DNA from: Gamsiella multidivaricata
Lineage: Eukaryota; Mortierellomycota; Mortierellomycetes; Mortierellales; Mortierellaceae
DNA length: 64,000 bases
Direction of reading: 5' to 3'
Assembly (NCBI RefSeq): GCF_025024155.1
Contig: NW_026251776.1
Span: forward strand, 124,001-188,000
The notes under the pieces are model-generated. The model worked only from the letters and a program-made list of their open reading frames with translations, did no database searches and had not been told where the DNA came from. Both the position numbers and the translations under genes were made by a program. This document shows, one piece after another, positions 41,630 through 54,669 of the stretch (within the stretch, counting starts at the first letter, position 1; the number at the start of each line of letters is the position of its first letter).

Positions 41630-43721
41630 TCAAGTCAATTTGGTAAGGCAACTACGAGGCCTCTCTTCATCCTTGTCCTTGTCTGCGGCCTTCAATGCCG
41701 TTGGGTCCACATATTCATCAACCACAACTTTAGGAATTGGTATTCGGTTGCCCTTGACGTAATAGGAGGGGCGGCGCCATTTTCCCTTCATGCCACGGTT
41801 ACTATCGCGTGCCTTGATTGCGGCGAGGGTTTTCGATACCACCTCCTACCACAGTTGACGCATAAAATGGCTTAAGAAACAGCCAGACAGCCAGACAGCC
41901 AGACGCCTGGGCACCAAAGAGCAATAAAAGAATAATCACTTACATGCACTAACTTCAAAAGACCTAATCCAGGGCAAAGAAGACTGAGTTGGAGGTTGTT
42001 ACGCGGAAGCTCAAAGGCTCCTATTGATTTGACAACGTATAGAGCTTCGTGATCTAACGACATCAGGGAAATCTCGCAGCGAGAGCCTAAGAAGTCATGC
42101 AAATCAGTGCCGTGATCATTAAGCAGAAGAGGTGTTGCTAAACGCAAAAGTACTTACGTCTTATCAAGAATCCAACTACTATAGGGCCCTTAATCCCGGC
42201 ACCGAGCATGTGATCTATCATCAGTTTCTGCATGCAAGGGAGCTTCCGCTGGTCCCCTTCCAAATCGTTATCATTTGCCCCTGGTTTCTTGATCTCAACA
42301 ATCAAAAGAGGAAATTCATCGTATTCCGCGAAATAATCGGGGTTATACGCCTCCTCAAAACCGGCGGGAGTGGGTAGTGGGTCTCGACTCCTAAAACGGA
42401 CCATAGCAGAAAACGAGAAATTTAGGAGCTGTTCGTATTGTAAATGTAACCATCGGCTACTCATTTTGACTTACCAATGATCCGACAGCTCCAGATCGCC
42501 GACTACGCCGAGGATAATATTTTTCACAATGGCCTGCGTGTAAGTGTCTTCATTCTGTGTCAGTGATGGCGGAGGGATGGGATATGAAGTACTGTGCTGC
42601 CAGAGGTAGGGTCTTTCCGTATAATGACGAAGAATGTCTGTTACAAGGCTCTCTCCTTCTGTTTGGATTTTGTTCCGAATGTGTCTTTTGGTCTCCTGGA
42701 ATGAATGTGATGCCGCAAACACAGAGCAGTCTAAAAGTAACTTCATTTCTCGATCAGGTGGTGTGGGTAGTGGTGTCGATAAAAATGATGTCAAGATGTT
42801 CGTCGGGACGTGTTTCTTCAGGAAGTTCGCGTCAAAAATAAAATTAATCGTTCTAAAGCACGCATGCATTATAAACAAGATACAAGAGAGATGTCAGACT
42901 ATTGAAAAAAAAAAAGTTCAGAAGCCATACAGCAACCACTTACAACAAATCCGAAACATCCGTGATCTCGCTTTGCTTTTTTATCATTGATCTTCGCGCG
43001 TCCATCAGTAGCTGGGAAACATCAAGTTGGTCGATTATGAGGCGAGCGTTTGTAGTCAGTCGTGAAGATGATGTGCCTGGTCCAACTAAATGATCGATAA
43101 AGCGGAAGTCAATGGAGTTCAGAGATGATCTGGTCGAAGAGGGATTGGAATCGGCGTAATCGCTTCCACATTCCGAAGGGAACTCGACTTCCAGGAAGGT
43201 GACTTTTTTATGGGGTGGTTCAGGACTTGGAGCGCTCACATCAGCCTCTTCAGCCTCCTCTCCAATCTCAGAGACAACTTCTGCAGCTGATCTTTTCGAG
43301 GGAACCGAACTCTCCGACGAAGTAGTTGTGAGCCGCCTCTTGCTGTCGTCTGATTTTCCACGAAGGCCTTGGGTGGTCTCTATCAGATCCAAAGGAAAAT
43401 AAATGCAGTTTACAATCGATCCCATTTAAGCATGAAAAAACCAGTACCAAGACGATAATAGCTGTTCTTACTGGCAACCTGATGTCGCACGAAAGTCTGT
43501 AAGACGGTACTGGCCGATACATGTGAGTAACTGATGTTTCCCTGTATCAACACATCGTGGTACTCCTCCCGACATTGAGCCGCGTCAAGCCTGTATTGAA
43601 TTGCTGATGAGTCTCCACGTCCACGCTGCCGACCAACATATGCTACAAAGCAAGAGTATATCTTCTCAAAGGTGCCGTGGTCATGGGTGTCGGTAAGCAC
43701 GAAATCTTTAAATGTCTTCAT
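41630..43721 (-). CDS. PD-(D/E)XK nuclease-like protein of unknown role
   Basis: Six exons (43721-43448, 43379-42944, 42852-42475, 42390-42158, 42086-41944 and 41845-41630) join in frame to 559 aa with no internal stop. The C-terminal half contains YFAEYDEFPLLIVEIKKPG, which fits the acidic residue plus E-x-K core of the PD-(D/E)XK nuclease fold, followed by LEGDQRKLPCMQKLMIDHML and a later ISLMSLDHEALYVVKSI strand pair typical of such folds. The middle has a lysine/serine-rich segment (SKRRLTTTSSESS) and acidic patches. The N terminus (MKTFKDFVLTDTHDHG) also occurs at 36380. I do not recognise a named family; related genes may be multi-copy in this lineage. A TATA-like CTATATACG lies about 50 bp upstream, just before the repeat array. 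Confidence 0.75.
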
Positions 43722-43804
43722 TCCTAACAAGTTGTCTCGGGTATACCAGGGTTAGTCATTAAGTTGTGCGTATATAGAGGTACAGAAAAGTCGAGAAACA
43801 AAAA

Positions 43805-44548
43805 CCAAAGGCCAATGAGAGAAAGAGCTCCATCTCTGCCCGCACCTGTGAGGCATCAGATGAGCGACAGTGAGCATAACCAGACGCAGAGGCCTTCTGG
43901 ACAGTGGCTGAAAGTCCGCACCCGTATGGATGTACAGTCAGTGCTGTGCATCCCACCCTCATAGACACAGTAGGAGCAATGAATAAATCGAAGCCAAAGG
44001 CCAATGAAAGAAAGAGCTCCATCTCTGCCCGCACCTGTGAGGCATCAGATGAGCGACAGTGAGCATAACCAGACGCAGAGGCCTTCTGGACAGTGGCTGA
44101 AAGTCCGCACCCGTATGGATGTACAGTCAGTGCTGTGCATCCCACCCTCATAGACACAGTAGGAGCAATGAATAAATCGAAGCCAAAGGCCAATGAAAGA
44201 AAGAGCTCCATCTCTGCCCGCACCTGTGAGGCATCAGATGAGCGACAGTGAGCATAACCAGACGCAGAGGCCTTCTGGACAGTGGCTGAAAGTCCGCACC
44301 CGTATGGATGTACAGTCAGTGCTGTGCATCCCACCCTCATAGACACAGTAGGAGCAATGAATAAATCGAAGCCAAAGGCCAATGAAAGAAAGAGCTCCAT
44401 CTCTGCCCGCACCTGTGAGGCATCAGATGAGCGACAGTGAGCATAACCAGACGCAGAGGCCTTCTGGACAGTGGCTGAAAGTCCGCACCCGTATGGATGT
44501 ACAGTCAGTGCTGTGCATCCCACCCTCATAGACACAGTAGGAGCAATG
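43805..44548. repeat. Four-copy 189-bp tandem array
   Basis: Units start at about 43805, 43994, 44183 and 44372 and are nearly identical; the last is a few bases short. The period, 189 bp, is exactly 63 codons, so one minus-strand frame stays open through all copies (44622 to 43759), repeating the segment that includes CTALTVHPYGCGLSATVQKA and GYAHCRSSDAS. The array ends about 80 bp upstream of the PD-(D/E)XK gene start. Whether it is transcribed leader, coding or promoter is unclear. Confidence 0.92.
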
Positions 44549-44555
44549 TAACAAA

Positions 44556-44801
44556 CTGACTCTTTCGGAATGGAAGTCAATAGAACATTACCTTCGTCAA
44601 GAGAAAAAGGAGCAGGAGGCACAAGTCGCGGATGAGGACTGGTTTGCGGGAAAAATGAGCGATGAAGAGGCGAACAAGCGAGGTGAAGGGAAGCGGGGTG
44701 ATGAAGGAGAGGACATTGAGGGGGACGAAAGCTACGTCATCAGTGACGCAGACTTAAGGGTGGAAAGGACCATCCTATTTTGGAACAATCTTCTTGTTTG
44801 A
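44556..44801 (+). pseudogene. Headless C-terminal gene remnant
   Basis: A plus-strand frame begins CTG at 44556 and ends TGA at 44799-44801. It reads LTLSEWKSIEHYLRQEKKE, DEDWFAGKMSDEEANKRG and DLRVERTILFWNNLLV, which looks like a real charged C-terminal exon. It starts within 8 bp of the end of the tandem array and has no start codon or acceptor upstream, so its 5' part seems to have been lost or separated by the array. Confidence 0.5.
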
Positions 44802-44874
44802 CAACGGCTAACTGCTTCAGCACATTTATTTCTGACATCTTTGTCCCGCCTGGACAGTATTGAGGCCCTTTACC

Positions 44875-45336
44875 TCAAGCGAGGCCTTCCTTACTCCTGC
44901 AGTTGTGGTCTGAAAGTACTCGAGCGTACATTTCATCTTTTGTTGAGCTAGCGGCAATGACGATCTCCGGTATCATGTTTTTCAGATCGACCTCAAGATC
45001 CTGAAGCTCCTGCTCTTGTTCTTTTTCTCTGGCCATTCTTTTCTGTTTCGCCTTTTCTGCCCTTTGCCTATGAAGTAGAAGAAGGATTGATGATGGAAGG
45101 GTTTGCTCCAAAGACGGTGGAAGTGTTGAATCAGGTGAAGGGTCAAAATCCTTCTGGTCGGCCTGTACTTGTAAGTGGTCAACTTCGTAAGGCTCTCCTT
45201 GATAAGAAATCTCCATACCCTTCTAGACCTTTGCGATTAAATACGTATGTTTGTACGGCGCCTGACGTTGAGCATAATAGTTGCAGCGACAGGCAGCAAT
45301 GATGGCGGATTCTTCGTCTGTACGGACGTCATATGT
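44875..45336 (-). pseudogene. Interrupted hypothetical ORF
   Basis: The minus-strand frame from ATG 45216 to 44875 encodes 113 aa with a Lys/Glu-rich coiled coil (RAEKAKQKRMAREKEQEQEL). The same frame continues upstream as AIIAACRCNYYAQRQAPYK and KHTYLIAKV, broken by one TAG at about 45226. This suggests a longer gene interrupted by a stop, or an intron I cannot place. No family is recognised. Confidence 0.4.
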
Positions 45337-45665
45337 AAGACTTGTGGGTGAGCGAGGAACAACGAGGTGAAAACAAGGGGAGACGAGTGAACAAGGTGAG
45401 TGAACAGAGACGAATGTGTGAAGACAATTGTTTATTGGCTAGACTGTTGTGAGTATATGAACTGTGGTTCAACTACATAGCCTGTCCTTCTTTATATACA
45501 TCAGACGAATAAAGGTCCTGATTAGTAATCCATGGTTTTAGACGCTTCGATGCTGCCTTTGCTCATCTTTACATCATGGAGCTCTCTGTGATGAGGGCGA
45601 CGTTGATCCAATCTAAGACGCGTCTAGCGTCACATGACAATACCAATCAGAGTTAAACTCTGACA
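45334..45665 (-). mobile_element. Possible solo LTR
   Basis: On the minus strand the segment begins TGTCAGAG and ends CTTACA, has a TATATAAAG at about 45488 and an AATAAA about 60 bp further on (about 45430), the order expected in an LTR. No matching 5-bp target duplication is seen (TGAAT versus TCATA), and no second copy is in the window. It could instead be an ordinary promoter and leader of the ORF at 45336. Confidence 0.3.
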
Positions 45666-45678
45666 TGAATCCACGCGT

Positions 45679-46062
45679 GAAGTTATCTATTTGACAACCC
45701 GGGTTGCCATGCATTGTTTGCCAACCCCTCTAATTGACCGCTGATGCTGCCCACTGTACACTTGCCCACCGCAGGCTGCACTAACTCGCATCTGCTTGCT
45801 CTTGCCACTCCTCCTCACTGCTCCACTACTCCTCTCCTCCTCCTCCTTTACCCCTGCTGAGAAATCATTACACTAGCCTGCCCACATCCTCGTAGCATGG
45901 ATCCAGCTGTACTGAGTAGAGCCGGCCTGACCGCTGCCTCAATCGCCGCTGCAGTGTATGTGGATTCAGCAGGCGGGCCAAAATAAGTCTCGTAGTAGCA
46001 GTCAATTAGGGGGGGTTGGCAGATAATGCATGGCAACCCGGGTTGTCAAATAGATAACTTCC
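45679..46062. mobile_element. 384-bp MITE-like element with inverted repeats
   Basis: The ends are inverted repeats of about 55-60 bp starting GAAGTTATCTATTTGACAAC and continuing CCGGGTTGCCATGCATT with few mismatches. The element is flanked by the direct repeat CCACGCGT (45671-45678 and 46063-46070), an 8-bp target duplication as made by hAT and some other DNA transposons. The interior has a CT-rich stretch, then an ATG at 45898 opening a short frame MDPAVLSRAGLTAASIAAA. It has no transposase, so it is a non-autonomous deletion derivative. Confidence 0.85.
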
Positions 46063-46221
46063 CCACGCGTTACAGCACTTACTTTAAACCTCATAACCTC
46101 ATCGTCTTTGCAGATTTCCGACATCCGACCTCTTTTCCATTGAGTCGATCACATTACTTCAGCTAAACACTACACATTCGACAGCAGCTCTCTCATCGTA
46201 CCACTCGACGTACAGAAAGTG

Positions 46222-49200
46222 ATGGGTCTTAAAGGCTGGTACGCCTTTCTTCGTAAGAAGGGTTACCAACCCTCTGTACTTTACCCATCAGCCGCGTCAA
46301 CAACCTCGAGCACCGCCACCAGAAGAGTCGACCTTCTCTCTCGCTTTTCAGTCATCAGGAATGCTTATACACGAAACTCCATCGAGATGGCCCATACGAT
46401 TCTAGAGCTGGATGTCATGCGGTTCGGGACCAAGGAAAACATCATTATCTACGTCGACGGAGTCCAGGCAGAGGAGAAGGAGTTCACTGCTCAGATCCGC
46501 CAAGAAGCTCGAAGAAGACCATTAAGCAATGCAAAGAAAGTGTGGATGAACTACAAAGACGGATCGACAACAACCTCAAGGTTCGTAAGCGACACTTTGC
46601 CGATGCCTGGACCAGCCTTGCGTCCTCCTTCTATTGGTCCCTGCCCATCCGTAATGCATTTGTCAAGTATATGCAGGACGAGGGGTGGAACATTCAGCGA
46701 TGCGAGACGGAAGCTAATGTTGTGATCGCTCGGGACTGCAGATCTGACGATATTGTCGTGTCTGCGGACAGCGATATGCTCGCGTACCCATCCGTGTCAA
46801 CCATGTGGCGCCCGATTTCAAAGAACTTGATTCTGATCTACAAGATATCGGATATCTGTGAGGTTCTCGGTGTGTCCAGGATCCAACTCACGGCCCTCGC
46901 TGTTGCCTCCAACAATGACTACGGAAAAAATATCTACCCTCTTGGACCGGCGACCAACCTTTCGATTATCAAGACGATCAAGAAACAAGGTAAATATCAA
47001 TGATCAAAGTATTAAGGAGCGAGGCTGAACCATCTAACTAATATATATATTTTTTTCTACTTTTTTTTACCCTATTTTTGCAGATGTGCGACAGACGGTG
47101 AATGCATATTTGGAAGACTCCAAGGTCGTTTCAAAGAACACAGACAACAGAACACTTGAACTTGCACTCAGAGTCTTAGTTGATCTCCAACAGACGCCTG
47201 TCAGCAATCCTCGCCCTTTGTCCAGCGTCTCGTCCTACAGTGAGCTTTACAAACGACTCAAGGATCTTTGTGCCATGTACCGGGAGAACAAAGGTTTTCG
47301 CGCACAACTGCAACCAAGGTATGCTATATTTCTGTTCAATATCGCACGGCATTTAGGACTTGGTATCGGCAATCGTCTCACAGCTCACCTTACTTATTGC
47401 TTTGATGTCAATAGTACTCGCAAGGATCAGGTCATCCGCCTCCGCTCCTTGCATTCTTCCATTCGATATAGGACAGTTGAGTCTCCAGCTATGTTGAAGC
47501 CTGGCCTTGGGTCGCGCTTACCACAGCCGCCATCACCGCAACCATCCTTAGCACAACCACAACAACCTGCACCGAATCTGCAGGATAACCCTCCGACCAC
47601 ATTACCGTCTCAGGAGTCAAACGGTCACCCACCGCTTCCAAGGACGCAGCTCCCACGAAATCGCCATCGTTACTCATTCAAGACGAGGACAGGGGCAACA
47701 AACCCCCCACCCCCAGTCAAGATGAAGCTCTACAAGTTCAAGCCTTACAAGGAGCCTGAAGCAAAAGACGAGCTTGAGCCCTCCAGCGACGAGCCCAAGC
47801 CCAAGCCCAAGCCCAAGCCCAAGCCCAAATTCAAAACGTTGTCCGATTCGAGTGCAGCCACCCGCAAGCTCACTATTACACAGTTATTACAATACCAGCA
47901 CCCAACATCTACTTTGAACGTCGGTACTCTATCCGCTAACCTCAGACGAGCTCTGCCAAACGACGGTACCGTTCAACAGGAAGTTGCCCTCTATATCCGA
48001 AACGCTGTGCGCGAGGCTGCCAGGATTAAATGACAAGGTCAACGAGTAATTGGAAAGTTTGTCGAGTATGTGAACAAGCATGGACCGGGCCCCAACGATC
48101 GTCGATTCATGAATTTTCTTTGTCCTCGAGTCTCCATGAAGAACGCGAAAAAACTGGATGACGGTTGTGCTGCAGAGGACGACGATGAGGATGGTGGTGA
48201 CATGGACCAGAAATCCAAGGATGGCAAAGGCTCTGAGCAGTTCTTGTTTTTCCAAAGCTTTCTGTCATACCTCTACTCTGGGAACTACTCACGAAAAAGT
48301 GGTACCGGTCAGAAGGTCAACGATTTCATTGATCGCCTCAAGGATCTCGGACTGTACGCCCCACCACGTCCTCGGGCCGCTCTCAACGAGATAACTCCCT
48401 TCTCACCAAAAGAGTTACTCCTATCGGTGGCGTTGCAGCTCAAAGTTGAACTCAAAAAAATGTACCGTAATGGGACCTGTGAGCTGCATAATAAGGTATG
48501 AGTTGAGGGCACTACTGGTCATCTTAATGTACATCAAACCGATACCTATCATGCCTCTTATTTATTATTTTCTATCTTCTCAATTATAGCTCCAGGAAAG
48601 GAAAAAGAAGGGGCTGCTGAGATCCGATGTTAACGTGGAGATCCAAGAGGATGCATCTGCTATCGAAAACTACCTCGCGATCAACAAATTGAGTCCAAAC
48701 CCTCGTAGGATCATCCCCATGTCGACAGCGAAGCAACCTTTTGTCAGTTTTACGGAGCGACAACCGGCCATGTTCTTTTTCAACCGCGGAGGCGCACTGA
48801 GGGCATGGGTTCAGGAACTGGTCGGTACCGTCTGCACATCCATGCGGGATGTTGAGGAGTGGATAGGGGGAAAAGAACCAGGCTTTCTCATCAAGCACCT
48901 TATCGTCGATATCGATCCCGAAGACCTGACCAGTCGCAAGAGAGGCAAGGCTGGACACCGCACTGCGATCAAGTTGTTATCCCTTGATGATCTCGAGACC
49001 GACTTGCAGATGCTGGACGATCCAGAGTTCAAACCGGAGACCTATGCCTGCAAAGGATATTTTCTCAGGGGGTCCTTACGAACTGACGGATTCACTATGC
49101 AGCTCCTGTGTTCCAAAGTCAGAGAACTTCTGTCAGTCAAATACAAACGGTTGCCCGGCGATCGCCTACCTCCTCAATTGACTTTAACACTTCACGATAC

Positions 49201-49753
49201 CAGTGATTTTTTGGCGGAGATCCGAAACGTTGTCCGAACCAAAGACGATGTGGCGAGACTCTGGCCTGGTGTCGATCCTAAAGATATCAAGATCCTCACC
49301 CTTGATGCAGGACAAGCTTTTGTCGTCGGAGCATACGCACATCTTCCACAATCGGGCAAAAATAAGGATCCAGTGCAAGGAGCCCCTCCGTCCTTCAAAG
49401 GCTCATTCCCTATTATCTCTTCCTCGACAACAACGCCACAGGATGTTATGCAGAGACTCACTTTGGAACAACAAGCGACCACAACGCCACTAACAATGAT
49501 AGGGCTCACGAAAGCCCACCACCATAATCTTGCTGTCAACCAAAAAGCGGTGATGCAGCCTGTGTTCCGATACAGACGGTGGCTTGAGGACGAGAAGCAG
49601 TTGATTCCAGCGGGCCGGTCAGACTCCATCTCGGACATCGAGTCCTGTCTTCCTCTTATTCGAGGTCCAGAGGCGAGCGTCACCAATTACAGTCGAAACT
49701 CGTTTTTGCGGCCACTTCCCACTGCAAATCGGCTGCAGACCTTAAATTTTTGA
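46222..49753 (+). pseudogene. XPG/FEN1-like plus TnpB/Fanzor-like fusion, disrupted
   Basis: Exons 46222-46990, 47084-48495 and 48590-49687 encode over 1100 residues before a transposon. The N-terminal third is XPG/FEN1-like: MGLKGWYAFLRKKG, IIIYVDGVQAEEK, RCETEANVV, DDIVVSADSDMLAY and SNNDYGKNIYPLGP align with the catalytic and helix-hairpin-helix motifs of flap nucleases. A Lys-Pro repeat linker (47797-47830) follows. The C-terminal part has GSLRTDGFTMQLL and then KILTLDAGQAFVVGAYA, resembling the TDG segment and RuvC-I Asp of TnpB/Fanzor proteins; the rest of RuvC is missing. Breaks: a frame change near 46510-46535, a TGA at 48031-48033 inside an otherwise continuous frame, and the pogo insertion at 49688, after which 22 codons of transposon end precede TGA. 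The XPG call is firm, the Fanzor-like call moderate. Confidence 0.7.
47797..47830 (+). repeat. Lys-Pro codon repeat (linker)
   Basis: Six tandem AAGCCC units encode a Pro-Lys linker between the nuclease-like N-terminal part and the C-terminal half of the disrupted gene. Confidence 0.9.
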
Positions 49754-49830
49754 TTGAATTGAACCTATTCTAAAGACGAAAAATACAATCACATATTCAG
49801 TCACATGTTGCGCTGCAAGTCGCAGACCCA
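49691..49830 (+). repeat. Left terminal inverted repeat of pogo element
   Basis: This 140-bp end is the inverse of 51916-52067 apart from one 11-bp length difference and isolated changes. Its first bases are read as the false C terminus (YSRNSFLRPLP) of the interrupted upstream gene. Confidence 0.92.
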
Positions 49831-51790
49831 TGGACACGTCTCTCATGTTGTATTCTATACATCTCAACACCATGACTACAAACCCTCCCCAAAAAAGACA
49901 CTATGAGTCGCTCTCAGCCCAGGCAACGACGACAGCCAAAAAACAAAAGCCAACTCTTGTAGACCTTCCTGCCAAGGATGACAAAAAATACACCAAGCGC
50001 GAACTTGAGGATATCGAGCGCACTCGTCGGCAGAGATACAACTACCTTTTAGATAGTGCTAGGCGCAAAGATATGTATTCACTCCTTGTGCTTCCTGCCG
50101 CCGAATAGTTCAAGATTCCAATGATCAGGGTCTCGCACACGCTGGAGCAGCAAGTCGAATTACTGGACATATTTCATTATCTCGATGATCGGAAGGAGGA
50201 CCTCCCGATCAAGCTTTCTCACAGATCCTTTGGGCGCTTGATAGGACTCCATCTTCCGAAAGGTAGCCTTGAACGCATGCTCGAGCGAGAGGACAAATTA
50301 CATGCTGCAGCCAGGACGCACCCCACAGGCGCTCATTACATTGTCAATCGCAAGGACTTAATGATTGAGGAGGTCCTCTACCGGTGGCTGCAAGACCAGC
50401 GGAAGCAGAACGTCCCTGTCAACGGCAAGATGATCAAGAAAACATGTACGGTTCTAGTCGATCTTCAGGACAGTTCGGGCAATACTGTATCTGAGGCACC
50501 ACCGTCATTTTCAGCCTCGTGGTTTAATGACTTCAAGAAACGCTATGGGATAATCTATTGCTAGCTTCATGGAGAAGCAGGATCGGTCGACCTGGAGGCG
50601 ATTGAACTGGAGCTTACCGACATCCGCCAGCTTTGCGCCCAATACACTCCGGATAACGTATTCAATTGCGACGAGACCGGCTTTTACTTGCAGGAGCTAG
50701 ACGACAAGTCTTACACAACTTCAGGGTCAAAGTCGGGCGCCAAGGCCAACAGGAGCTGCAGGGTCTCCACCCTGTTTTGCATTAATGCTTCTGACTCCTC
50801 TCTCGCCATGGCAGACACCAAGGATTCGTTGAAGCCGTTGGTTATCGGTAATACGTTTAGTGTATGATTTGTATTGCAATCGTCTCTTATTTATTCGTGT
50901 TTTTTACTTCCGTTCTTGACCTTTACGACTCTATAATGCCCTTTACTTTAGGCAAAAGCATTCTAAAGGATCTTGAAAAAGATTCGGCGAAAAGGATGCT
51001 CATAAGGGAAACAAATTCGGGATGGATGAACAGAGACCTATTCGTAAAATGGCTACAAATGTTTGATGACGGTCTCTCGCAGCCAACCCTTCTCCTTCTT
51101 GACTCCGCAGGTGCACACAACAACATCGACATGCGTGATCCACGAACCAACACGCCTTGGAAGCATCTTCACATACGACGGCTCCCGACAAACACTACAT
51201 CAGTAACGCAGCCTCTCGACGCGGGCGTGATTAGTGTTTTCAAACGAGCTTTCCTGGAGATGCTCAGCTATGAAACCTATCTCGCTCGTAGCTATGATAA
51301 AAAGAAACGTATCTCTGACGAACTCGCTTGGACATTGATCCCTATGCATGGAGTCGAATGAAGCCTCTAACGCTGCGAAACTGCTTCGCCAAAACGCCAG
51401 TCCTTCCGACGGAAATGCGCGAGCAGCTCCGACGATGACTGCCAACCCATGCTGGACAGCAACAACCACTTCAATACTCCCGACACAACCAACATAAAGA
51501 GCAGGAGCGGGCATATTTCGAGCATCTGATCGCCGAGATTACTATGGAGAACAGTTGGAATTTCCGAGTAGTGAAGCGCTACAACACGTGAATATAGTGG
51601 AAGAAAGAGACGGAGACCATTCCGAAGGCGAAGTTAGCTGTGACGGGTCTACAAGCAATGGCGGGAATGCAGGCTCACCGTTAGCAGACGTGGACTTGGA
51701 TGTGACCACTGAAATACTGAAGTATCTGGCAGGAGACCACGATGTACTCAGTGTTGAAGGCATCAAACAACTCAGACAGGTTACGGAGTA
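49830..51790 (+). pseudogene. pogo transposase, interrupted
   Basis: A CENP-B/Tc5-type helix-turn-helix region (SHTLEQQVELLDIFHYLDD, SLERMLERE, EEVLYRWLQDQR) precedes a DDE_1 catalytic domain with FNCDETGFYLQ, LLLLDSAGAHNN and LPTNTTSVTQPLDAG as the acidic triad. A short intron (50848-50951) sits inside the conserved VIGKS block. The frame is broken by TAG at 50106-50108 and TAG at 50562-50564 (frame continues beyond both) and by a frame change near 51330, after which AWSRMKPLTLRNCF continues in another frame. It is therefore unlikely to be active as it stands. Confidence 0.85.
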
Positions 51791-51915
51791 GGACTTGAAG
51801 GAGAGGCGGGAGATTCGAGGGATAATGAAGGAACTGGTGCATGTTTGTGCAGCGTTAAAGAATAAAATGGACACGAATGTCTTGAAAGGTAGCAATGAAC
51901 GTGAATAAAGGTTTC

Positions 51916-52067
51916 TGGGTCTGCGACTTGCAGCGCAACATGTGACTGAATATGTGATTGTATTTTTCGTCTTTAGAATAGTCTTTTCAGAGGTTCAATT
52001 CAATCAAAAATTTAAGGTCTGCAGCCGATTTGCAGTGGGAAGTGGCCGCAAAAACGAGTTTCGACTG
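51916..52067 (-). repeat. Right terminal inverted repeat of pogo element
   Basis: Inverse copy of the left end, 152 bp, ending CGAGTTTCGACTG before the TA duplication. Confidence 0.92.
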
Positions 52068-52069
52068 TA

Positions 52070-52193
52070 CGTACAGTATTTGACAGAAGGCCTTTTATTT
52101 AAAGCTTTTTTTATGAACCTGACAAAATATCCATTGCCTCGAACCTGGGACTTCCAATGCGGAAACGCAGCTGCGTGGATGATTCTTCTGTAA
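52070..52193 (+). pseudogene. Downstream stub of the interrupted fusion gene
   Basis: If the pogo element and one TA are removed, the reading frame of the gene at 46222 continues from codon TAC into this segment for about 40 codons (VQYLTEGLLF, then PRTWDFQCGNAAAW) to TAA at 52191-52193. The frame match and the coding look support it being the original continuation, though the end is probably truncated or decayed. Confidence 0.5.
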
Positions 52194-52196
52194 GAC

Positions 52197-53338
52197 CTAT
52201 CGATGCAGGGGTAATGTCGACATAGGTTGTGCCTCCTCTGCTTGTGAAATCGGCACTGGACGTAGCGCATGTAATGGTTTACGTCCTTGTGTTGGTTCGG
52301 TTGCTGCTAAATGCTCTGCCTGTCCAGATGCCTGTACTGCTGATGGTGAGTGATCTATTGGTGTTTGTGCAGCAGTTGTTGAGCTTCCTGCTGGTGAAAA
52401 CTCATGCTCTTGTGCTTGTGTATTTGACGCCGGAATCATCCTTATTCCCGGTTTTTGACCTTGCTCCCTCATGGCAAGCACCAGGGGGACTTTACTTAAT
52501 GGTTTGTGCCTCTACTTGCATTTCTGCTTTGTTTTGAGTATATTCAGTAAGTAGCTGTAGTAGGCTAGTCCGGGGTAGGAGGCGCCACTGACACCGTGCT
52601 CTTTGACTGAACGTGGTGCAGATGTAGTGGCCCGACTAGAGGAAGTTGAATTGAGAGTGGAGCTTGCTTGATCTTGAAACATAAACATCAAAAACTGTTG
52701 CTGTTGCTGCAACTGATTGATGCTGTAGCGCTTCTCCAGTTTACGGTCGGTCTGTTCTTGTCAGCGCAAGGGCTACTCGTGTCACCAATTGACCTAGCTC
52801 CCCAATACCCTGAAATCATCCGATAGATAAAGCATAAGATCTTACAGCTGTTGCGAAGGGTCGTGTTCCATCGCCACCATCCCAGCAATAACGCGTTTTT
52901 GCGGCCATAATGGAGATGAGCAGCTGTATCCTGAAGGATGATACGCCGACAGCGCGTGAACAGTTTTAAGAGCCCAACTTTCGTAGCGTCCCTAGCGGCA
53001 GTGGAGGTTGACATTGCCGTAGTCGGTAAGAGAAACGCGAACAAGGATGGCGATTGAGACCGACCTGTAGCGAAATAAACAATCAAGAGCGATATCGGGA
53101 GAGCAAGAGGCAGGTTGGAGGATTTCAAACTGAGTAATTGGTCAATGACGAACTCGTCAAACCACCTTTCCAGCTTTAACGAAGAGATGCGCATGTCGAT
53201 TGCGCTTAAGTAGTATCGTCCACTCCTCATGGTGCGTTCATCATATTTTCTTATATCGTCAATGAATATTGCCATGTGCTGATAGAAATTGTGACGGGAC
53301 CTGTACGATTTCAGGAACATGATGAACAAATCGAACAT
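52197..53338 (-). pseudogene. Decayed or unresolved minus-strand gene
   Basis: Several minus-strand frames look coding: HMAIFIDDIRKYDERTMRSG, SSLKLERWFDEFVIDQLL and KLFTRCRRIILQDTAAHL (53338-52900), then KLEKRYSINQLQQQQQFL (about 52740-52512) and a Gln/Ala/Pro-rich frame (52481-52197). I could not join them with acceptable splice sites. The LQDTA-type segment is faintly like Ndc10/Crypton recombinase C-terminal regions, but this is weak. It may be a remnant of a lineage-specific or mobile gene. Confidence 0.35.
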
Positions 53339-53383
53339 CAGATGCTTTCATACAAGGGTAGAAAGGCAGCCTGGAACGCCTGT

Positions 53384-54669
53384 TTATTTGTTTGCAAGAT
53401 AGCCAAGGCCCAGTCGCTTTCGAGCTTCCGCCTCGTCTGATGCTGCCGCTGCTGCTGGACGCGTCCGACTCAAGAGCCATCCCCACCAAGCGAACGCACG
53501 CTGGATTGCCTCAGGGCTAGGAGACGGCATGATATTCTCGATTCGGTGCTCATCAACCAGCCCATTCTCATTAAACTGATACACAAAAACGCCCGCATAC
53601 GACGACGGCGGAGGCGGCGCGGGCCCAGAGGACGTTAGAACCACTGACGGCCGCGTCGTTCCCTTCATCGTCCATCGTATGGTGACAGTCGTGGTGAGGG
53701 GTGAAGACTGCCCTTCTTCGCTGGCTCCTTCTGTTCCTGCCGGACCTACCGTTCTATCAAGTTTGTCGACGCAGTCCATTTCGAAAGCACGACTGCCACG
53801 TTCTGGGTAATGGCGGTATGTAAAGTCGAGGGGAGATTCTACCATGCAATGATCAAATGTTCCAGGCCGCGTAGCTGATGACGGCTGTGTTCCTGCGCTC
53901 GAATGATACTTTAAGATGGATGCTGTTGCGTTGGCATAGTCCCCACCAGAGTCCATACCCTTGAGACCCCTGCCTCCACGATCGTTCACGCGGATCGACT
54001 GGATCTCGAACTCGAGGTCGCGGAACCATATTTTGAAGCTCCAGCGAACAGCTCCAGCGAGCAAAAAGTAGATGGGCTTGCCCTGGATGGTCGCGTTTGT
54101 ATGGCTAGCCTCGATAAGCCGGATATTTGAAGCGTAGATCGACGTCGTACAAAGACCATACTGGAAAAACTGCGGAAGCTCCTCGCGCAATGTTCTGACG
54201 GCTATCGTAATGAGGGTCCGAAATAAAGATGGGTGTGTAAGCCCTTCGTCTCCATTGCGGCTGACAAAGATTCGCTATCACTATACATACCTTTCCCGAC
54301 GCGAATCTTGTATTCTTGAGGAGAGACATGATCGTTACTCTCTCCAGAGTATTTCAGCACAGGCGCCTGCCGATTCGATTGCGTCATAAGTCCCCTTAGA
54401 GACGACATGCCAGCGCGTAGTGGGTGCCTCCAAAGAGTGGAGCCGCCTTGGATAGGCGCCAGGAATGGTTCGCTGCCGCGTGGTATTATGCAGGCTGTAG
54501 GTGCATTAGATAGACGGAGCCGGGACGGAGTTCCGGCAGTATTCGTGGCGACTGAAAATGGATTCGAGTGAAGATGAATGTTTCCACAGCGCATTCCATG
54601 GAATGCTGCTCTTCCGTGTGTTCGCCCAGAAAGTAGTATGGGTTTTAATATATCTGACGTTGTCCTCAT
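53384..54669 (-). CDS. DUF2358 (NTF2-like) protein, probably mitochondrial
   Basis: Exons 54669-54291 and 54201-53384 join in frame to about 398 aa. A start at 54774 would add 35 residues. The N terminus is basic, Ser/Thr-rich and poor in acidic residues (RAAFHGMRCGNIHLHS), fitting a mitochondrial presequence. The domain begins YKIRVGKAVRTLREELPQFF across the intron and continues YASNIRLIEA, WSFKIWFRDLEFEIQSI, TTTVTIRWTMKGT and YQFNENGLVDEHRIENI, matching the conserved pattern of DUF2358 proteins, which have an NTF2-like fold and no established reaction. A disordered insert separates the strands (residues about 190-270). The protein ends with an Ala-rich helix. Confidence 0.82.

Follow-up and report, generated by a model that had tools for sequence, protein, structure and literature searches.

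TnpB elements of the IS200/IS605 and IS607 type carry a target motif on the left and an omegaRNA at the right end, and the right flank supplies the guide. Fanzor is the eukaryotic relative of CRISPR-Cas12, and Fanzor1 is found in the MuDr-like fungal elements ROr-4, PBl-3 and MCi-4 (Bao and Jurka 2013, PMC3627910). As described there, these elements encode no MuDR transposase; the elements described below share with them the fungal MuDR-type setting and 9-bp duplications, but possess a MULE/SWIM-like transposase gene. With the Fanzor1 proteins SpuFz1, PpFz1 and GtFz1 they share the fold, the shifted RuvC-II Glu, the C4 finger and the RuvC-III Asp and, judged by PMC10432273 and PMC11423790, a predicted 3′UTR scaffold of stem, linker and stem ending at the right end of the element. 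They differ from them by an N-terminal FEN/EXO-type nuclease with a long linker; in addition RuvC-I mostly reads DLG, DAG or DGG, and the candidate target motif is longer than that of Fanzor1 and lies 3 nt away. The proposed layout is that of the IS200/IS605 and IS607 elements as outlined in PMC10711439, whereas the transposase here is DDE-type with target duplications, the gene is spliced and eukaryotic, and a nuclease is fused to it. FEN1, EXO1 and XPG belong to the Rad2 family, but here such a domain sits on a transposon protein, joined to a nuclease of the RNA-guided type.

Fanzor1 in MuDR-like fungal elements (PMC3627910) and FEN-family nucleases are known already; their fusion is undescribed in the literature searched. 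No paper on an XPG/FEN-Fanzor or FEN-TnpB fusion was found in open-licence PubMed Central, a collection lacking many preprints and subscription papers. Neither fusion nor XPG occurs in the main text of PMC10711439 or PMC10432273, neither XPG nor fused in that of PMC3627910, and neither fused nor flap in that of PMC11423790. Two passages of PMC12719977, the one paper mentioning both Fanzor and FEN1, are unrelated to a fusion.

The window, which is the whole stretch of 64,000 nucleotides analysed, holds on its + strand a fusion-gene chain at 46222–49687. The preliminary description read it as an XPG/FEN1-type nuclease joined to a TnpB/Fanzor-like RuvC half, and every motif quoted there is found on that strand. 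The chain is a degenerate four-exon remnant with no single open reading frame. Its introns are all GT..AG, and exons 2 to 4 keep one phase except for an in-frame TGA. The features of the locus are as follows.

44734–44739, + strand: ACGTCA target-motif match in the left flank, then 3 nt, then a putative 9-nt duplication
44752–45678, no strand assigned: left part of a subfamily C element, about the first 50 nt missing (left ends compared by eye)
44875–45400, − strand: divergent transposase remnant, C-terminal SWIM-like part, catalytic core missing (ORF 44875–45216; reading of 45201–45420)
46222–46989, + strand: exon 1, FEN1/XPG/EXO1-type nuclease domain by family profile and fold, with a 1-nt frameshift near 46513
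47084–47318, + strand: exon 2, in which the nuclease domain ends and the linker begins
47415–48495, + strand: exon 3, carrying the Pro/Lys-rich linker and the first part of the Fanzor domain (HPTSTLNVGTL), in-frame TGA at 48031–48033
48590–49687, + strand: exon 4, Fanzor REC/WED and RuvC-I (LTLDAGQ); the break comes ahead of the RuvC-II Glu, zinc finger and RuvC-III Asp
49688–52069, no strand assigned: pogo/Tc1-type transposon truncating the fusion gene, outside the system (by its ends and Pfam)

The gene stops abruptly at 49687 because the left end of the pogo/Tc1-type transposon sits there. This insertion has terminal repeats perfect over about 145 nt, a TA duplication, and Pfam matches to HTH_Tnp_Tc5 (2.8e-13) and DDE_1 (6.7e-16); its own transposase frame is fragmented. 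As to the remainder of the gene, no further match to the sister copy L009 exists within window positions 43001–54000, the exact C-type right-end string is absent from the + strand of the window, and contig C146 has no zinc-finger match among the 150 scored. In Pfam the window fragment gives XPG_I only, below threshold (0.0035), the exon-4 piece alone has no match in the PDB by sequence, and Rfam yields nothing at gathering scores. The flap-nuclease landmarks are present as described, but the set is not the full one claimed: the window copy reads TEAN where most relatives read TEAD, and its acidic set is therefore incomplete.

The left part of the element, at 44752–45678, is 90% identical to copy L011 and 94% to L010. 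The transposase remnant within it was compared by eye with the tail of the E-type transposase. The putative target duplication occupies 44743–44751; the right end of the window copy is lost. A MITE-like insert with 50-nt inverted arms, 96% complementary, lies between the left end of the element and the fusion gene (45679–46061) and is missing from the corresponding place in L010 and L011. A tandem array of about four 189-bp units, the first of them 99% identical, occupies 43802–44668.

The host assembly (37.5 Mb, 180 contigs) contains 127 segments matching the exon-4 region and at least 150 matching the zinc-finger exon (150 of 191 candidates scored). Segments do not equal copies: some copies yield several, and the weakest segments may belong to other Fanzor-like genes. 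From the 4.9–9.9 kb taken around 20 of the 127 segments, copies were sorted into subfamilies A to E, with mostly 95–99% identity within each subfamily represented at least twice; L010 is an exception in its 3′ half, where identity to the other C copies drops to about 80%. A further pair of tails, L057 and L058, was designated subfamily F. Many copies lie at contig ends, and a subtelomeric position was considered and rejected, the loci holding 0–4 scattered TTAGGG/CCCTAA words each and no array, and contigs breaking within near-identical copies.

Protein searches, which reach only relatives sharing exact words, gave at least 35 relatives with copy L027 and 68 with the Fanzor half among the about 8,000 candidates scored in each, 82 in total. 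By the genus name shown all of these 82 are from Mortierellaceae, except P0069, which carries no name. Profiles from members of alignment A1 match both halves in 49 of the 82 proteins, the Fanzor half only in 29 and the XPG half only in four. Relatives lacking the XPG part, which the preliminary description had named as evidence against its reading, thus do occur, yet most are short or partial. Among the 37 proteins of at least 1,100 residues, 34 match both halves and three (P0044, P0079 and P0080) the Fanzor half only; many of the short relatives are annotated as partial. Precomputed Pfam lists XPG_I together with a TnpB-type finger in P0005, P0039 and P0049, so the fusion is already visible in databases. 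The combination of two nuclease types on one chain, flagged at the outset as unusual, recurs in other Mortierellaceae, and this recurrence, together with the 127 C-terminal segments in the same genome, shows that the fusion is not a chance event.

The N-terminal half, in a profile of the 35 relatives against the PDB, matches RAD2 (2.1e-8), XPG (6.6e-8), FEN1 (1.7e-5) and EXO1 (2e-4). AlphaFold models of this half match FEN1 and EXO1, the two being tied, and the FEN fold is found with its catalytic acids and basic Lys/Arg. The profile and the models support a FEN1/XPG/EXO1-type nuclease, putatively a 5′ flap endonuclease or 5′ exonuclease.

AlphaFold models of the C-terminal half match Fanzor1 over about 480–490 residues, starting at about residue 203 of P0010, with a predicted WED/REC/RuvC/NUC core and not some other fold. 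The later motifs, cut off in the window, are present in relatives when checked: the shifted RuvC-II Glu in 17 of 18 rows, the zinc-finger Cys in 16–17 of 18–20 and the RuvC-III Asp in 19 of 20; in 38 of 43 matches the Glu precedes the first Cys by six residues. The Bao-Jurka definition of Fanzor/TnpB, D-X(125,275)-[TS][TS]XX-C4 finger-X(5,50)-RD, was searched with a last span of 2–10 residues, narrower than the published 5–50, and fits all 32 proteins in which both ends were found (84 scanned, two of them transposases). RuvC-I reads DPG in only 3 of 32 proteins, the others having DLG, DAG, DGG or DMG. DPG is usual for Fanzor1 but stands outside the Bao-Jurka motif; published Fanzors almost all carry it, according to PMC10711439. 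Since DPG is rare here, we class the half as a Fanzor1-type domain whose RuvC-I is atypical, and not as a standard Fanzor1. Sequence motifs and models support this assignment, and RNA-guided cleavage would be its expected activity.

Within subfamilies dN/dS is 0.34–0.45 for the N half and 0.23–0.67 for the C half. The C half gives 0.15 between B and C; saturation affects the other three between-subfamily comparisons. These ratios indicate that both halves are under constraint, which between recent copies is only moderate. The observation in the preliminary description is confirmed, and its interpretation is supported.

A divergent gene precedes the fusion gene in subfamilies A (L019), B (L013), D (L017) and E (L027). 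The L019 transposase pieces match SWIM above the cut-off (1.1e-5) and MULE at 1.1e-4, the latter at 23 bits, below the Pfam cut-off of 27.6; the L017 piece gives a weak MULE match (0.005). The L027 and L013 pieces have no Pfam match, so for B and E the MULE likeness was judged by eye only. Two annotated transposase relatives, P0083 and P0084, were found, both with SWIM. Target duplications of at least 9 bp are present at A_L019, A_L025, D_L016 and D_L028, and one of 8 bp at B_L013; at the remaining six of the 11 loci tested the search gave no match or one at chance level. Duplications of 8 bp alone occur by chance (D_L017 and B_L012), and that of B_L013 was accepted because ACGTCA lies at the right offset. 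With E_L027, where GCTTGGATG was seen by eye at both ends, the 8–10 bp duplications typical of MULEs are present at 5 of 11 loci plus one. Left ends had looked variable, and one-ended spread with free 5′ ends was considered; it was rejected, since the duplications fix the left ends in six elements, which favours internal deletions and decay.

ACGTCA lies exactly three bases left of the duplication, with ACGTAT in its place in E. A search with the A-type left end gave 14 matches, of which 12 were fetched. All 10 complete left ends, defined as matches starting at query base 1–3, carry ACGTCA at that offset, with flanks otherwise different from each other; this count leaves out L043 and L044, which have incomplete ends and ACGTCA nearby, and the two unfetched matches. 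L033 is the left end of A_L025 and is counted in both sets. The background frequency of ACGTCA in the window is 1.2e-4 per position. Most rows follow the consensus TKACGTCAY; the leading T is missing from L033, L036 and L040, and in L042 the core is followed by G. Three of the six C-type left flanks fit the spacing (left end by eye), one is shifted and two are motif-free within 60 nt; for B, L047 fits and L048 does not. When right flanks were compared by eye the motif was seen on the left side only, and it therefore sets the orientation. Some MULEs lack terminal inverted repeats. Here self-comparison of seven elements revealed no strong ones, and of five elements only D_L016, at 47.5, scores above its 200 shuffles, whose maximum is 35; A_L019, A_L025, D_L028 and B_L013 do not exceed the shuffle maximum.

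An RTGACGTMA-like sequence is found about 32 nt inside the right ends of A to F (for example L012, L016, L027 and L057), and it is the reverse complement of the target motif TKACGTCAY.

The right end itself is exact and single in each of A, B and D, and in C single to within a few As. A tail between the stop codon and this end is conserved, a candidate for the guide-like RNA that the preliminary description proposed to look for next to intact copies. From B to E the tail has a TTTTGTGTG..CACAC hairpin, an 8–10 nt linker and a long stem in which, about 32 nt from the end, stands GGTGACGT(A/C)AT or a variant of it. In A and F other hairpins take the first position, F has an extra hairpin in the linker position, the A tail is longer and folds differently, and L011 has lost the first hairpin by deletion. 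The genome contains 14 occurrences of the tail pattern and the reversed control none, and all 14 sites lie 93–218 nt downstream of a zinc-finger match on the same strand. Stem 2 is predicted to close at the last one or two bases of the element in 7 of 7 folded sequences (from B, C, D, E and F), a closure that 63–94 of 500 shuffles per sequence tested also give. D_L016, D_L017, B_L015, C_L009 and A_L019, folded for z-scores, are outside this set, and in C_L009 and A_L019 stem 2 is not closed at the end. The z-scores are −4.2 for E, −2.7 to −2.9 for B, −0.6 to −1.4 for C and likewise for D, and −1.5 for A, those of C, D and A being weak. The longer or decayed tails of L059 and L060 were left out of folding, and L061 has no stop within its 600 nt. 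The outermost stem-2 pairs differ yet still pair (GAU/GUC in B, UGA/UCA in C, GAA/UUC in E and AGA/UCU in F, with two pairs only in D); when five tails are aligned with MAFFT, the 5′ arm of this stem is misplaced. The SpuFz1 RNA also lies between the stop codon and the right end, and it extends 14–15 nt into the flank (PMC10432273). The order of stem, linker, stem and guide is the same in that RNA and in the tail, where it is predicted. Conservation and predicted folding thus make the tail a candidate omegaRNA scaffold, whose guide would derive from the flank.

The following explanation is proposed, at a probability of about 0.5 as a whole. A MULE-like DNA transposon of Mortierellaceae would carry a divergent transposase gene and a gene in which a disordered linker joins a FEN1/EXO1-type 5′ nuclease to Fanzor1, the 3′ untranslated tail serving as omegaRNA scaffold. 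The tail ends exactly at the right end of the element, so the guide would be the neighbouring flank, that is, the target duplication and host DNA, and ACGTCAY in the left flank would be the motif in front of the target. Excision by the transposase would leave an empty site bearing both motif and guide match. The Fanzor half could then cut this site or a sister copy, and repair from the element-bearing copy would restore or multiply the element. The FEN/EXO half may trim or resect the break from recessed 5′ ends, or remove 5′ flaps, thereby steering repair towards copying. According to PMC10432273 Fanzor cuts have 3′ overhangs, hence recessed 5′ ends; several of the matched structures show EXO1 with such a substrate. 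With a FEN/EXO domain on the same chain, resection could begin at once and favour homologous copying, which would be useful to a transposon after excision. Sequence and models support the fusion itself, both folds with their conserved active sites, the neighbouring transposase, the duplications, the target motif and the conserved tail; RNA guidance, a TAM role of the motif and the task of the FEN/EXO half are inferred from these. Several results speak against the explanation: the rarity of DPG at RuvC-I, the weak z-scores of C, D and A, the open end of C_L009, the deviating tail of A and the shuffles that also close at the end, the weak terminal inverted repeats, the MULE score below the cut-off and the transposase pieces of L027 and L013 that match nothing in Pfam, the three long relatives without an XPG match, and the moderate dN/dS. 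Reported Fanzor1 TAMs are of 3–4 nt, such as CATA, TTAA and ATN (PMC11423790), and the motif, separated from the duplication by three degenerate bases, does not resemble them, so that it may belong to the transposase alone.

This last point leads to another reading, in which ACGTCA and the tail are transposase signals only and the Fanzor half, no longer an RNA-guided nuclease, persists for example as a DNA-binding or regulatory remnant. The absence of DPG in 29 of 32 proteins and the motif spacing agree with it, but the catalytic D-E-D and C4 are kept in 16–26 of 18–26 rows and the tail is conserved, with a stem predicted to close at the right end; we consider it improbable. An activity of the FEN half on RNA or an R-loop is about as improbable, with slightly more in its favour. 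The half would trim the 5′ end of the omegaRNA precursor in the 3′UTR or cut the displaced strand, so that RNA maturation or cleavage of the second strand would be built in. FEN-family enzymes act on 5′ flaps, including flaps with RNA, which they can remove, and the tail, sitting in the mRNA 3′UTR, must be released; against this, SpuFz1 cuts both strands without such a partner (PMC10432273).

A service to the transposase is somewhat easier to accept, though still unlikely. During MULE-type excision and insertion the FEN half would trim flaps or gaps, either at the ends of the transposon or at the 9-bp target gaps, and the Fanzor half would bring it to the empty site or the element ends. In A, B, D and E the element does carry the fusion gene and a transposase-like gene in divergent orientation (with Pfam support for L019 and, weakly, L017), target duplications are present, and the right-end sequence is like the reverse complement of the target motif, as if one protein bound both. 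However, MULE elements elsewhere are not known to need a FEN partner, and eukaryotes have an ordinary host FEN1. It would be very surprising if the fusion were an artefact of two adjacent genes that gene prediction or the reader had joined. Broken copies, the many partial annotations and the 29 Fanzor-only and four XPG-only proteins of 82 might invite that view, but introns are GT..AG, in phase and at like sites in the copies inspected, and long fused gene models occur across many genera.

Genome engineers have fused exonucleases to Cas enzymes with the aim of changing the repair outcome. Evolution appears to have made a comparable fusion in a eukaryotic transposon family of many Mortierellaceae, a group of Mortierella-like soil fungi, and a natural cutter-plus-trimmer would be both new and useful. 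If the fused nuclease matters, the purpose of Fanzor would be the repair outcome and not the cut alone, and its role becomes testable; the fixed ACGTCA offset and the right-end scaffold give a ready prediction of guide plus motif. It is possible, if rather doubtful, that we are dealing with an RNA-guided nuclease that brings its own end-resection enzyme and commits its breaks to homologous copying, so that the transposon is rewritten or spread next to ACGTCA.

P0046 (Podila clonocystis) and P0072 (Haplosporangium gracile), listed in databases as elongation of fatty acids protein 2 and subunit of tubulin prefoldin, include the transposon fusion protein and are probably merged gene models. About a dozen distant zinc-finger exons of 32–36% identity (for example in G000 at C115:478689, C171:129514 and C139:148019) have an open frame of 77–78 residues, usually with TAA inside, and look like a second Fanzor-like family.
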